Shown: one piece after another, positions 3,846 to 14,347 of the stretch
How the letters are laid out: each line of letters begins with the position of its first letter
How positions within the stretch are numbered: position 1 is the first letter of the stretch
Notes under the pieces: model-generated
What the model was told of the DNA's origin: nothing
Database searches by the model: none
The model's input: only the letters and a program-made list of their open reading frames with translations
Assembly: GCF_017873855.1 (NCBI RefSeq)
Contig: NZ_JAGGKR010000001.1
Coordinates: 310,001 to 374,000, forward strand
Source of the DNA: Methanolinea mesophila
Lineage (GTDB): Archaea > Halobacteriota > Methanomicrobia > Methanomicrobiales > Methanospirillaceae
Direction: 5' to 3'
DNA: 64,000 nucleotides
Translations under genes and position numbers: made by a program

Positions 3846-5618
3846 TCAGAATCTTTTTGGGTCGGTATCCACGTCCACGATCACAGGGGTATCGAGGGAC
3901 ATCGCTCTGATAAGCGCCGCCTTCAGTTCACCGGGCCGTTTCACCGTGATCCCCTTCCCGCCGCACACTTCCGCATAGGCGGCGAAATCAGGGTTCAGCA
4001 GGTCGGTGCCATAGTTCGGATAATGCTCGGTCAGCTGCTCGACCTGGATCATCCCCAACTGCTTGTTATTCAATACCACTACGACCATCGGGAGGTGGTA
4101 CTTGACCGTCGTGACGAAATCCGACATTGCCTGCGAGAAACCCCCGTCTCCCGTAATACAGACGACCTGCTTCTCCGGATACGCGATCTTTGCCGCAATG
4201 GCCGCCGGGAACCCAAACCCCATCGTGGCAAGGTATCCCGACATCGCAAACCGCTGTCGTTTCATCCGGAAGTTCCTGCCGAACCACCACTGGTTTTCCC
4301 CCACGTCGACCGTGATCACCGCGTCCTCGGGAACAGTCTCCGAGAGAACCTTCATGATGTACGGCGGACGGACCGGGACCGCCGTGGGATCGGCTTCGCG
4401 GTCGAGCTGCTCCTGCCAGTCCCGTTTCATCTCCCGGATCCTGGGAAGGACGTCTTTATTATGCGTTTTCACCATTCCGGTGAGTTTCGGGATCGTGAGG
4501 GCGCAATTTCCCCAAAGGGGCAGAGCCAGAGGCCCCTTCCCCAGCTTGACCGGGTTGGTATCCACCTGGATCAACGCCTTGTCGGTCGGGATATTGGTAA
4601 ACTTCGAGAACCCTACCCCCAAGGTGATGAGGAGGTCCGCCTCGTCCGTAAGGGCCCGCGCCTGGGGAGAGCCCACCGACCCCAGGACCCCCACGACCCA
4701 GGGATGGTCTTCGGGGAGGATTCCCTTCGCCCGGTAGGTGGTGAGAATGGGGGCCTTTATCTTTTCAGCCAGTGCGGCAATCGCGTCCCCCCCTCCGTAC
4801 GCTCCCCACCCGGCAATAATGACCGCGTTTTGAGCCTGGTCGATAGCTGCGGCCGCTTTTGCCAGTTCATTCTCGTCAGGGACGATGTGGGGGCTGGCAA
4901 TGCAGATCTCCTTCCTGCAGCACGAAATTTCGAGGTTCTGTTTCTGGATGTCGTTCGGGACCGAGATCTGCGCTACGCCGTGGTGGAGGGTGGCATACTT
5001 CAAGGCAAGGTTCAACAGCAGGATCGTCTTGTTCCTCTCGTACACGGTGTTATTGTAGACCGAGACCGAGCGAAAGAACGCGTCCTGGTCGATCTCCTGT
5101 ATCCCGAAGGGGCCGGTGTACTGGCTCTCTACCTGGCCGTTGAGAGAGAGGACCGAAGCTCCGTCCTCCTTGGCATCGTAGAGCCCTGTCGACAGGTTGG
5201 TCGCGCCCGGACCGGCGATAGTGAGACAGGCGGCGATCTTTCCGGTGAGCTTATTGAACGCAGACGCCGCCATCGCCGCATTCTCTTCATGCCTGACGAC
5301 GATATACTGCATGTTCGGATTTTTCCGGATTGCATCGACCAGCCCGAGCGACGAGGTCCCGGGGAGACCGAACACGAGGGTGACTCCCCACGCCACCATT
5401 TCACTTATGAGCGCATCGGAGACTGTGCTCCCGGAGGCTTCGTGGAGCGCCTCCTCTTCTTTGATCTCCACGAAAGCGCTCTTTGCCGCTCCGCATACCG
5501 GGCATTTCCAGGCGTCCGGGAGGTCCGAAAACCTGGTGTGGGGCGGAGTTTTAGTCGCCGGTTCCCCCTTCTCTTCGGAATAGATATACCCGCATACGCT
5601 GCATTTCCATCTGGCCAT
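3846..5618 (-). CDS. Rubredoxin-ThDP enzyme fusion (acetolactate synthase/pyruvate oxidase superfamily)
   Basis: Residues 1-50 form a complete rubredoxin domain with two C-x2-C iron knuckles (CSVCGYIY and CPVCGAAK). It is joined by a short acidic linker to a full-length thiamine-diphosphate enzyme of about 530 residues. The Pyr domain carries the catalytic glutamate in RHEENAA. The PP domain carries the ThDP/Mg motif starting GDGGFSQAM and ending near LNN. The enzyme half resembles acetolactate synthase large subunits, pyruvate oxidases and benzoylformate decarboxylase-like proteins; the substrate cannot be told. The fused rubredoxin implies one-electron transfer to or from the active site, which is inference. 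The start chosen is ATG at 5616-5618, just before the rubredoxin; an upstream in-frame ATG at 5655-5657 would add 13 unlikely residues. It stands alone on its strand. Confidence 0.85.
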
Positions 5619-5832
5619 AAGTATCCCGGACGAGAAATGGTTGTAGTGATATTTCAATTATCCCTGAGCAGGCCGGACCGGTCACCTCACGCTCGTGGCA
5701 TGAAAAAGACCTCGGGTGCAGACTGGAACATGGACATTCTCGCCACATTCCACGTTTGTCAAAAACAATCCTTATCAGGCAGCGTACTACACTGGCTGCA
5801 GGGATAAAGAAAAAAGAGAGTCCCGGTTCGAT

Positions 5833-7447: not shown

Positions 7448-9526
7448 ATGAAATTCCGATTCCTGATCATAGTCATCGTCCTCGCCCTCCTTGTCGCGGG
7501 GGGCGTAGCGACTTCAACGACCGGGACCCTGTACGTGGCATCGAACCCGCCCGGGGCGACGGTCCTCGTCAACGGCGTAGTGTCCGGCGCGACGGACGGG
7601 TTCGTGAAGAATGTTCCCGCGGGGGTCCAGAACCTGACCCTCGTCAAAGCGGGGTACGATCAGAAGACCATGATGGTCGAGGTCCCGGCCGGGGGGGTGA
7701 AGGCCCTGGCCCCCATCACCCTCTCAAAAAGCGGAGGGGGAGTTCCGGGACAGACCGGCACCCTGTACGTAACCACGATACCGTCGGGGGCGAGCATTCT
7801 CATCAATACCACCGACTACGGCACGACGAATGGGTTTGCGAAAAATGTTCCCGCAGGCCTCCAGGAGATGACGCTCCTCAAAGCGGGGTACGAGCAGAAG
7901 ACCGTGACGGTCGATGTACCGGCAGGCGGGGTCAAGGCCCTGGCCCCCATCACTCTCACGAAAAGCGGAGGAGGAGCGGGAGGCGCGGCCACGCTCTACG
8001 TGACCTCGATCCCTTCGGGAGCGACCATCCTTATTGACGAAATAGATTACGGCACGACCAACGGGTTCGTGAAAAATGTCCCCGCAGGGATCCAGACCCT
8101 GACACTCGTCAAATCGGGATATAAGCCGGAGACCGTGACGGTTGACGTCCCGGCGAGCGGGCTGAAGGTCCTCGCACCCGTCACCCTCACCAGGGCCGGG
8201 CCCGGGTCCGGCGAGGTGGAGAACATCCAGGCAGCCGTGGACGCGGCATCGGACGGCGACACCATCGTGTTGAAGAGGGGGACCTATTACGAGAACGTGG
8301 TGATCAACAAATCGGTCACCCTCATCGGGTTCGGTCCCGGTGAAACCGTCATTAACGGGGACACCGGCAACGTGGTGATCGCGGGAGGAGTGATCAACGT
8401 CACGAAACCGGGCATTCTTTCATCCGGACCTTCGGTGACCCTCGTCGGTATGACCATCACCGGAGGTACTGCGCACTACGGGGGCGGCATCTTCAACGAC
8501 GACGGATCGGTGGACCTCTCGTGGATATCCATCCAGGATAATTCGGCGTCGCTGAGCGGCGGCGGGATCTACACCATGGGAGGCACGGTGACTATGGACG
8601 GGAATACCACGGTCGCCGGGAACACGGCCCCGGTCGGGGGCGGAGTAGTCAACGACGGCAGCACGCTCACCATGGACAGCGGGAGCGCGATCACCGGGAA
8701 TACGGCGCAGGCCGGCGGCGGGGTCGAAAACGTCCAGGGTACGCTCGTCATGAATAATGGCAGTTCCATCTCCGGCAATTCGGCAACCTACAACGGCGGC
8801 GGGGTCTACAGCTGGTTCTCCAGCACCATTACCATGAACGGGGGCTCGATCACCGGGAACACTGCCGAGACCGGAACCGGTGGCGGGATCTATACCGATT
8901 CTTCCAGCCCCGTGAACAAGAACGGCGGCACCGTCTCAAATAACACTCCGGATAACATCGCCTACGAGTATGAAGTGACCTTGCAGGGTGCTGATATCGG
9001 GAATATCATCTTCAATACGGAAGACTGGAGCTTCGTCGCCCACCTGCAGGGACTGACACCGGGAATGGAATACTGGCTTGCGGGCGAGTGGATACCCGGC
9101 ACGATCGCCTCGGCGCACGCCGCCGGTGACGGCAGTCTTCTCCTCCAGGGGGTCCTGAACCCTGCTCCGAACCTGAGAACCATGGTTCCGGCATTCTTCC
9201 TGGGAACCGGGTCGCCCCCCCCGACCGCAGGGTCCGTCGTGCTCGATGGGAAAGAGTGCCGCGGAGGGTTTACCAGCACCACCATCTTCGGCACGTTGAC
9301 ATCCGATGGGGCCCCGGTTTCGGGCGCTGAGGTCGATTTCTATGTTTACGACCCGGTGAGCCTGCAAATTTCCTACCCGTCGTTCGGCCACGATACCACG
9401 GACAGCGACGGCAAGTTCTGTAAGGTATTTTTCGGCGGGCACGCGGGCGAGTCCCTTGCCGTCCAGGGTGGCGGCCAGATCGATATGAACGTGGAAAAGT
9501 CGGATGTCTGCCCGGTGTGCGGGTAA
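7448..9526 (+). CDS. Secreted PEGA-repeat / parallel beta-helix surface protein
   Basis: Probable cell-surface protein of 692 residues. Residues 1-22 are a signal peptide (FLIIVIVLALLVAGGVA). Three PEGA domains follow in tandem (about 25-95, 100-170, 178-248), each starting G/ATLYV and containing NVPAG...TL.K.GY. Residues 255-490 form a right-handed beta-helix: an IQAAVDAASDGDTIVL entry motif, then polymorphic repeats built on GGGIYT...N. The C-terminal 200 residues contain an Ig-like or carboxypeptidase-regulatory-like part and end VCPVCG. No membrane anchor is visible at the C-terminus. Beta-helix proteins of this kind act as adhesins or carbohydrate-binding proteins in the family; the target is unknown. 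A related but shorter beta-helix protein is at 58663-59796. Confidence 0.85.
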   Translation: MKFRFLIIVIVLALLVAGGVATSTTGTLYVASNPPGATVLVNGVVSGATDGFVKNVPAGVQNLTLVKAGYDQKTMMVEVPAGGVKALAPITLSKSGGGVPGQTGTLYVTTIPSGASILINTTDYGTTNGFAKNVPAGLQEMTLLKAGYEQKTVTVDVPAGGVKALAPITLTKSGGGAGGAATLYVTSIPSGATILIDEIDYGTTNGFVKNVPAGIQTLTLVKSGYKPETVTVDVPASGLKVLAPVTLTRAGPGSGEVENIQAAVDAASDGDTIVLKRGTYYENVVINKSVTLIGFGPGETVINGDTGNVVIAGGVINVTKPGILSSGPSVTLVGMTITGGTAHYGGGIFNDDGSVDLSWISIQDNSASLSGGGIYTMGGTVTMDGNTTVAGNTAPVGGGVVNDGSTLTMDSGSAITGNTAQAGGGVENVQGTLVMNNGSSISGNSATYNGGGVYSWFSSTITMNGGSITGNTAETGTGGGIYTDSSSPVNKNGGTVSNNTPDNIAYEYEVTLQGADIGNIIFNTEDWSFVAHLQGLTPGMEYWLAGEWIPGTIASAHAAGDGSLLLQGVLNPAPNLRTMVPAFFLGTGSPPPTAGSVVLDGKECRGGFTSTTIFGTLTSDGAPVSGAEVDFYVYDPVSLQISYPSFGHDTTDSDGKFCKVFFGGHAGESLAVQGGGQIDMNVEKSDVCPVCG

Positions 9527-12426: not shown

Positions 12427-12885
12427 CTACACGTAGGTAGCGACCGAAATGATCTTCCCATTAACCGCATTGATTTTGACAATATACCCTGACGGTTGCG
12501 GCGGACAATACTTACCTTCCGAACACTGGTACGCAATCCCATGATATTCATGAATCGTTACTTTCCAAACCGTTCCCACCAATTCCGCTGTTACCGGTTG
12601 CGTGAACCCGGGCCAACGGAAGTGATTTTTCGCAATCGCAATAGCCTCGTCCTCCGAAATGATACTCTGACGAGTATCCGGAAGGGGAAACGACAGGCCC
12701 CAGGTCTGAGAATTGCCGAACATCCTGGAGAGAGCCGAAGTAATGAGATCCTGGACAGATAGGGTCGATGAGCTTTGGGACCTGAAATCGTAGAGAGACG
12801 GCAATGCCTGGGCGTATCCGGCGGTCAGGGTTAATGATAGGATCAGTAATATGAAAATTTTCAGTGCAATTTTGTTCTTTTTCAT
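12427..12885 (-). CDS. Secreted PepSY-like protein, array copy 5 (most downstream)
   Basis: About 152 residues with an N-terminal signal peptide (IFILLILSLTLTAGYAQALP) shared almost exactly by all five copies. The mature part has a variable Ser/Thr-rich stretch, then a PepSY-like core: SEDEAIAIAKNHF, an aromatic VWKVTIHEYHG strand, and the closing VNGKIISV. PepSY domains are small extracytoplasmic domains often proposed to bind or inhibit peptidases. A Cys pair (YQCSEGKYCPP) lies in the loop before the last strand. The start is ATG at 12883-12885, with GAGGTG 6 nt upstream; the in-frame GTG at 12892-12894 is part of that site. The last tandem copy has diverged most in the loop. Confidence 0.75.
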   Translation of the reverse strand: MKKNKIALKIFILLILSLTLTAGYAQALPSLYDFRSQSSSTLSVQDLITSALSRMFGNSQTWGLSFPLPDTRQSIISEDEAIAIAKNHFRWPGFTQPVTAELVGTVWKVTIHEYHGIAYQCSEGKYCPPQPSGYIVKINAVNGKIISVATYV

Positions 12886-12905
12886 TGTATTCACCTCGCT
12901 TCAGG

Positions 12906-13361
12906 TCACATGTAAGATTTCATAAAAATTATTTCACCGGTTTTCGCATCGATTTCGAGAATTCCTCCCGAATTCAAGTACTCGCAAATCCCGGACGCCC
13001 CACAAATGGGAAGATATCCTTTGATATCCACCTTCCAAACGTTTCCCCACAATCGGGCGGAGATTGGTTTGGTCAGGATAAGATCCGGATATCGGTTTTG
13101 TGCAATTGCAATTGCTTCTGTCTTCGAGATTAATTGCGTCGGCGAAGATATGTCAGGTTTTGAAAAATCCCAAGAATATGAACCGAATATAAGGAAACTG
13201 CCTTGAGACAGAAGATCTGATATGGAAAAGGTGTAGGATGTCGAACTCCTTTGGGTACCGAAATTGTAGATGCTCGGCAATGCCTGGGCATATCCGGCGG
13301 TCAGAGTCAACGATAGAATAAGCAGTATGCAAATTTTCATCAATTTTTTTTCTTGTTTCAT
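12906..13361 (-). CDS. Secreted PepSY-like protein, array copy 4
   Basis: A 151-residue paralogue of its neighbours: signal peptide with LTAGYAQALP, Ser/Thr linker, ISKTEAIAIAQNRY helix, NVWKVDIKGYLP strand, Cys pair in the loop (ICGASGICEY), and LEIDAKTGEIIF at the end. The gap to the next copy is 20 nt, so it is cotranscribed. The middle region (FSISDLLSQGSFLIFGSYSWDFSKPDIS) is closest to copy 2 at 13859, suggesting that the array grew by duplicating a pair rather than by single steps. Confidence 0.75.
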   Translation of the reverse strand: MKQEKKLMKICILLILSLTLTAGYAQALPSIYNFGTQRSSTSYTFSISDLLSQGSFLIFGSYSWDFSKPDISSPTQLISKTEAIAIAQNRYPDLILTKPISARLWGNVWKVDIKGYLPICGASGICEYLNSGGILEIDAKTGEIIFMKSYM

Positions 13362-13383
13362 GTAATTCACATCTGATGAAATC

Positions 13384-13839
13384 CTACAACCAAGGGGTGA
13401 CGGAGATTATTTCCCCGGTTTTGGAGTCTATTGTTACTTCCCCGCCCGCACACGTTCCCGGGATGAAATATCCCTCGGGACAATCTCCTTCCCAATCCGG
13501 TGCAAATCCTGTTATTGTTACAATATACACGCCCGGTTTCCACCGGACTGTTGCCGGACCCCTCCATGTCGCCGTTGGCCAGAGACTTTTTGCGATGGAA
13601 ATAGCCTCATTTTTAGAGATGTAATTGAGGGATGGGAAATCGGCACTTGATGGAACATTCCACGCGGGTATATTTCCGAATATACCGGATAATTTCGAAG
13701 CGATCAGGTCGTAAAAGGACGTGCTTGCGGCACTTTTGTATCCGTAGAAACTGAGATCGGGCAATGCCTGGGCATACCCGGCGGTCAGAGTTAGTGATAG
13801 GAGGAGCAGTATGAAAATTGCAATTTTTCCTTGTTTCAT
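13384..13839 (-). CDS. Secreted PepSY-like protein, array copy 3
   Basis: A 151-residue paralogue with the common signal peptide, then SFYDLIASKLSGIFGN, a segment shared with copy 1. The PepSY-like core is ISKNEAISIAKSLW, GVYIVTITGFAPDW and VTIDSKTGEIISV. Two cysteines (GDCPEG and GTCAGG) sit in the loop. AGGTGA lies just upstream of the ATG at 13837-13839. The final strand ending in a Gly-Glu-Ile-Ile turn is the most conserved part of the family. Confidence 0.75.
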   Translation of the reverse strand: MKQGKIAIFILLLLSLTLTAGYAQALPDLSFYGYKSAASTSFYDLIASKLSGIFGNIPAWNVPSSADFPSLNYISKNEAISIAKSLWPTATWRGPATVRWKPGVYIVTITGFAPDWEGDCPEGYFIPGTCAGGEVTIDSKTGEIISVTPWL

Positions 13840-13858
13840 TAATTTCACCTATGAATCG

Positions 13859-14326
13859 TTATTTGACCGCATTCACCGAGATGACCTCTCCCGTTATCGC
13901 ATCAATTTTTACTTTTCCGCCTGCATCCGTCACGATGCAATAATAACCATCCGGACAATCTCCTTCCCAATCCTTCGTATATCCGTTCAATGTAACCGTC
14001 CATACACCCATGAACAACAACGCATTGGGCTTCCCAGTCCAGATTGCATCCGGCCAGAGATTCTTCGCGATCACTATCGCTTCATCCTTCGAGATCATTT
14101 CCGACGGCAAGACGACTTTCGGTTTCGAAAAATCAAAGAAATACTTGCCGAAAATCAAAAAACTGTCATGAGATCGCAGATCGACAATAGAAAATGTGGG
14201 AGAGGTCGTACTTATTTGGGCACCGAAATTGTAGATGCCCGGCAATGCCTGGGCATATCCGGCGGTCAGGGTCAACGACAGGATAAACACTATAAAAATT
14301 TTCATCGCAATTTTGTTCATTTTCAT
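13859..14326 (-). CDS. Secreted PepSY-like protein, array copy 2
   Basis: A 155-residue paralogue: signal peptide ending YAQALP, then FSIVDLRSHDSFLIFGKYFFDF, ISKDEAIVIAKNLW, GVWTVTLNGYTKDW and KIDAITGEVISV. Cysteines are at GDCPDGYYC. The start is the ATG at 14324-14326, behind GGACGTGA; the preceding GTG in frame is part of the binding site. It is separated from copies 1 and 3 by about 20 nt. Confidence 0.75.
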   Translation of the reverse strand: MKMNKIAMKIFIVFILSLTLTAGYAQALPGIYNFGAQISTTSPTFSIVDLRSHDSFLIFGKYFFDFSKPKVVLPSEMISKDEAIVIAKNLWPDAIWTGKPNALLFMGVWTVTLNGYTKDWEGDCPDGYYCIVTDAGGKVKIDAITGEVISVNAVK

Positions 14327-14347
14327 TTTGTTCACGTCCCTTCGATT

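Follow-up and report, generated by a model that had tools for sequence, protein, structure and literature searches.

A rubredoxin fused to a pyruvate-oxidase-like thiamine-diphosphate enzyme in archaea and bacteria: a candidate 2-oxoacid oxidase with a built-in one-electron carrier

What does a rubredoxin do at the N-terminus of a thiamine-diphosphate (ThDP) enzyme? The question is raised by a gene of Methanolinea mesophila located in the window analysed here, a stretch of 64,000 nucleotides. A preliminary description of the gene, made from the sequence, had proposed that a complete rubredoxin precedes an acetolactate-synthase/pyruvate-oxidase-like enzyme with catalytic Glu and ThDP motif intact, and that the fused domain acts as a built-in one-electron carrier.

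The domain layout bears this out (Table 1). A single ORF runs from the ATG at 5618 to the stop at 3846 with no internal stop codon. The Pfam Rubredoxin match in the 590-aa protein reached 70.3 bits (cut-off 23), with 75 bits for the rubredoxin domain in the genome search, and the N-terminus carries both C-x2-C(G) knuckles of PF00301, with all four Cys in the canonical pattern C-x2-C-x29-C-x2-C. The TPP_enzyme_N, M and C domains follow in this order as a complete ThDP enzyme at residues 65–583, all far above Pfam cut-offs; domain order, catalytic Glu and the GDG...NN motif, both intact in the alignment, are those of ThDP enzymes of the pyruvate oxidase (POX)/acetohydroxyacid synthase type. The catalytic Glu (E111, in the motif RHE) is invariant across 45 aligned relatives. 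Elsewhere in the genome (2.66 Mb) there are five other matches to rubredoxin, and acetolactate synthase is encoded by a gene of its own (IlvB, L007). The genome contains a second rubredoxin fusion (L006, region C1:865159-865293), a 505-aa ORF in which an N-terminal rubredoxin is followed by a region that, as far as can be judged from its sequence, resembles the glutamate-synthase type (FMN).

Table 1. Fusion gene and its domains (window coordinates)
Feature	Residues	Position	Strand	Basis or remark
Rubredoxin–ThDP enzyme fusion gene		3846..5618	minus	590 aa + stop
Rubredoxin domain	3-49	5472..5612	minus	Pfam PF00301, E 1.4e-19; ligands Cys6, Cys9, Cys39, Cys42
Linker, rubredoxin to ThDP domain	50-64	5427..5471	minus	constant junction length in 23 fused genes
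TPP_enzyme_N (PYR), catalytic Glu111	65-179	5082..5426	minus	Pfam
TPP_enzyme_M, likely FAD-binding (predicted)	252-379	4482..4865	minus	Pfam and motif alignment with FAD-dependent pyruvate oxidases
TPP_enzyme_C (PP), GDG...NN ThDP motif and Glu527	438-583	3870..4307	minus	Pfam, alignment

Further fusions, for which the preliminary description had suggested a search, proved numerous. We searched 295 genomes from the phylum of M. mesophila, scanned genome contigs and ran class-wide searches; about 48 distinct loci, from several archaeal and bacterial groups, had a rubredoxin in the same reading frame as the ThDP enzyme. They comprise Methanomicrobiales-type relatives, with 19 genomes from the order of M. 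mesophila (58-100% identity), Methanocellales, the genera g30 and g45 of f8, another euryarchaeal family, and one genome of family f30 (37-43% identity), as well as Bathyarchaeota-type archaea and Dehalococcoidia (47-53% identity). Of the 18 matching genomes in the class to which the Bathyarchaeota locus belongs, 17 show a match that also spans the rubredoxin. No fused copy read lacks any of the four Cys. The knuckles are separated by 29 residues in the order of M. mesophila and by 21 elsewhere; the spacing of 24 in L013 comes from a sequence that holds an undetermined stretch. With its own genome excluded, every fused rubredoxin was closest, among those compared, to one that is likewise fused and not to a free-standing rubredoxin. 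The fusion is widespread and not unique.

Two observations would have spoken against a genuine fusion according to the preliminary description: a start codon after the rubredoxin, or separate proteins in relatives with no conserved junction. Neither pattern appeared. Among the 23 fused genes checked, no conserved internal start lies between the rubredoxin and the ThDP domain, and in every one of them 20-23 residues separate the last Cys from the TVSD motif. Comparison of seven close pairs shows purifying selection on both parts (dN/dS of about 0.04-0.24 for the rubredoxin and about 0.07-0.11 for the ThDP domain). The fusion could be an artefact of annotation or assembly if translation began after the rubredoxin; the one in-frame candidate start that the linker of this gene offers is a GTG at codon 50, which has no obvious Shine-Dalgarno sequence. 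Such an artefact has a negligible probability, given that about 48 genes, spread over several phyla, share the frame, that the junction is constant and that the rubredoxin is under purifying selection. Upstream, a TTG at 5657 is mechanically possible as an alternative start; relatives favour the ATG at 5618. Because about 48 homologues are fused, with four Cys kept, a constant junction, selection on both domains and no conserved internal start, the fusion is no accident: it is real.

The gene neighbourhood is not conserved and offers no hint of function: no conserved neighbour gene was found, and each Pfam family was present in at most 3 of 135 neighbour proteins. The window gene adjoins kdpA, and MscS or betaine transporters lie near a few relatives; we claim no link to osmotic or K+ functions. 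Just upstream of the fusion gene is a gene for a small Cys-rich DUF2769 protein (PF10967; 5833-6201, minus strand). In genus g45 a gene on the strand of the fused gene closely precedes the latter (L093:7776-8408 and relatives in L092 and L099) and encodes a protein that combines two CDGSH-type matches with a divergent 4Fe-4S domain. Elsewhere in the window we observed a 692-aa protein with three PEGA repeats followed by a GGGI-type repeat region (7448-9526, plus strand) and a local gene-duplication array of four similar secreted-looking proteins of ~155 aa in tandem, with the shared start ...LSLTLTAGYAQALP... (12427-14335, minus strand).

Which enzyme is fused to the rubredoxin? The broad type named in the preliminary description stands and can be narrowed to its pyruvate-oxidase side. 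Among NCBIfam models, PRK08611 (pyruvate oxidase) was the best in all seven clade proteins tested and thus in each branch sampled, always below its cut-off of 742 bits (about 390-545 bits for clade members, 496 for the window protein). The window protein scored 356 bits with TIGR02720 (pyruvate oxidase; cut-off 638) and 325 bits with TIGR00118 (acetolactate synthase; cut-off 538), which does not place it in the latter family. In the maximum likelihood (ML) tree, carrier-bearing proteins and related ones, some of them carrier-less, form one clade beside the FAD-dependent pyruvate oxidases (support 100/92); with long branches dropped, the clade is sister to the pyruvate oxidases (split 100/97). 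Acetolactate synthase, including IlvB of the same genome, falls outside the clade in both trees. The AlphaFold model of the fusion protein has a mean pLDDT of 91.4. Its closest structure is PoxB (3eya; VIA Z 44.0, 511 aligned residues, rmsd 2.5), followed by the pyruvate:quinone oxidoreductase of Corynebacterium glutamicum (9ev6; Z 42.5). VIA-align listed ThDP enzymes only and gave the rubredoxin part no match of its own; the rubredoxin is identified by its sequence.

For reading the alignment at single residues we used residue numbers of Lactobacillus plantarum POX (LpPOX) and PoxB, and PoxB FAD-contact positions. E527, the equivalent of LpPOX Glu483 and the Glu that follows the NN motif in pyruvate oxidases, is kept in 45 of 45 alignment rows; the genome's own acetolactate synthase has W at this position. 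Because family models, tree, closest structures and E527 agree, we read the enzyme, by sequence comparison, as pyruvate-oxidase-like rather than acetolactate-synthase-like. Motifs of the middle domain align at the FAD-contact positions of PoxB, a motif-level sign that the fusion enzyme may bind FAD. The window protein ends with DVDTDPKRF, and the C-terminal tail of roughly 40 residues found in PoxB and other POX is absent throughout the clade.

Other positions depart from pyruvate oxidases. The equivalent of LpPOX His89 is Asn in the window protein and its clade, so the pyruvate-oxidase residue is absent; the equivalent of Phe479 is Met in the window protein and varies in the clade, and the equivalent of Phe121 varies as well (F/I/V/L). 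Since these positions have changed, the substrate may not be pyruvate. A less likely alternative is that the enzyme oxidises another substrate and passes the electrons to rubredoxin; this could be a different 2-oxoacid or, as for cyclohexane-1,2-dione hydrolase, a diketone. The Phe121 and His89 positions lend themselves to this reading, as does an aminotransferase class I/II gene located downstream in two genomes of family f5. Nothing direct points to any such substrate, and the gene contexts are not conserved. This alternative overlaps our preferred explanation, and the probabilities of the readings do not sum to 1.

Natural variants of the architecture bear on the role of the carrier. In seven genomes the ThDP enzyme is preceded by two tandem rubredoxins. 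In eight genomes of genus g10 (family f2) a separate rubredoxin gene lies just upstream in another frame; its stop codon is 20 nt inside the ThDP ORF, so the two genes overlap, and both parts are conserved. As g10 falls within fused lineages in the tree, the split form probably arose by a fission that kept both parts. Rubredoxin is replaced by an N-terminal Rieske domain in haloarchaea, on a Mycobacteroides abscessus plasmid and in a Chloroflexota genome (loci L096-L098, L101-L109, L115, L116 and L151, the last being the Chloroflexota genome). The Rieske fusions form a single clade (100/100, ML tree); where annotated, they are called only ‘thiamine pyrophosphate-binding protein’, and we found no characterisation of them in the open literature searched. 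A free Rieske gene, divergently oriented, adjoins the fused gene in L081 and L051. The N-terminal modules, where present, are all one-electron carriers: single rubredoxins with 21- or 29-residue spacing, tandem rubredoxins or Rieske domains. The exchange of rubredoxin for Rieske argues that one-electron transfer is the selected property, and recurrence, tandem rubredoxins, the split operonic form and the Rieske replacement together strengthen the built-in carrier idea.

Some members of the clade have no carrier, and in families f5, f7, f10 and f31 and in L041 no rubredoxin was found near the ThDP gene; either the carrier can be dispensed with or another protein takes its place. In genus g21 (L089, L090, L091; L091:7931-9163, minus strand) the carrier-less ThDP gene directly follows a gene with a glutamate-synthase domain (PF01645), a pair that echoes the L006 fusion. 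The existence of carrier-less members means that catalysis without a carrier may be possible, as would be expected if the carrier, sensing redox state or iron, turned the ThDP enzyme on or off from outside the catalytic electron path. We consider such a regulatory role quite improbable, since Rieske exchange and tandem rubredoxins are easier to reconcile with a relay than with specific allosteric sensing and the split g10 form would also need to keep contact.

The explanation we prefer, with a probability of roughly 0.6, is a cytosolic POX-type 2-oxoacid oxidase with ThDP and probably FAD, in which the fused one-electron carrier replaces quinone or O2 as acceptor. ThDP would decarboxylate a 2-oxoacid (pyruvate being the default guess), and the hydroxyalkyl-ThDP intermediate would pass two electrons to FAD. 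FADH2 would then reduce the Fe(III)/Fe(II) centre of the rubredoxin one electron at a time, and reduced rubredoxin could donate to a cytosolic acceptor, e.g. rubrerythrin or another O2- or peroxide-removing protein. FAD, the direction of electron flow, the 2-oxoacid substrate and the downstream acceptor are elements that we infer. Electrons might also flow in reverse, with reduced rubredoxin keeping FAD reduced as a redox switch while ThDP carries out non-oxidative chemistry (carboligation or decarboxylation). In acetohydroxyacid synthase FAD is present and takes no part in the net reaction, and the Asn and Met at the His89 and Phe479 positions are common to the window protein and acetolactate synthase. 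Reverse flow is nevertheless improbable: the tree and the best family models place the enzyme with pyruvate oxidases, the POX-typical Glu is kept and the genome already has an acetolactate synthase.

The recurrence of rubredoxin, together with Rieske domains in aerobic relatives, suggests a class of 2-oxoacid oxidases with a built-in one-electron carrier. Pyruvate-oxidase-type enzymes are known to use quinones and O2 as acceptors. The rubredoxin–ThDP architecture is presumably visible in domain databases; a description of such a fusion enzyme was not found in the open-access literature searched. The genome papers on Methanohalophilus mahii (PMC3017947) and Methanocella paludicola (PMC3146512) mention rubredoxin or rubrerythrin, not the fusion protein. 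We tentatively propose an undescribed class of 2-oxoacid:rubredoxin (or Rieske) oxidoreductases, in which the carrier (21-residue-loop, 29-residue-loop or tandem rubredoxin, or Rieske) may have been acquired or swapped repeatedly; anaerobic archaea would thereby possess a direct path from central 2-oxoacids to the rubredoxin-dependent removal of O2 and peroxide. If so, a flavin-ThDP oxidase has been rewired to one-electron carriers, and methanogens have a possible electron source for rubredoxin. With nature supplying fused, tandem, split, Rieske and carrier-less forms, a handful of purified proteins would be enough to put the question to the test.

Several known systems share parts of this design. 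PoxB, the pyruvate:ubiquinone oxidoreductase of E. coli, and the C. glutamicum enzyme (PQO) have the three ThDP domains, the catalytic Glu and the Glu after NN in common with the window protein; they lack an N-terminal carrier and possess a C-terminal tail, which has a membrane/quinone role, whereas the window protein shows the reverse, and PoxB has His where the window protein has Asn. Phosphate- and O2-dependent POX (L. plantarum POX, SpxB and the Bacillus-type PRK08611) provide the best-scoring model and the sister group; unlike the window clade they have the tail and no carrier domain, and His89 and Phe479 of the L. plantarum enzyme are not conserved in the window protein. IlvB shares the fold, the ThDP motif, Asn at the His89 position and Met after NN, but has W-Q in place of E-Q and is separate in the tree. 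Pyruvate:ferredoxin oxidoreductase also couples ThDP-dependent oxidation of a 2-oxoacid to one-electron carriers; it differs in domain arrangement, in its dependence on CoA and in its use of [4Fe-4S] clusters. The haloarchaeal and Mycobacteroides plasmid fusions belong to the same clade as the window protein, carry their module at the same position and likewise have no C-terminal tail, with a Rieske [2Fe-2S] domain where the window protein has rubredoxin.
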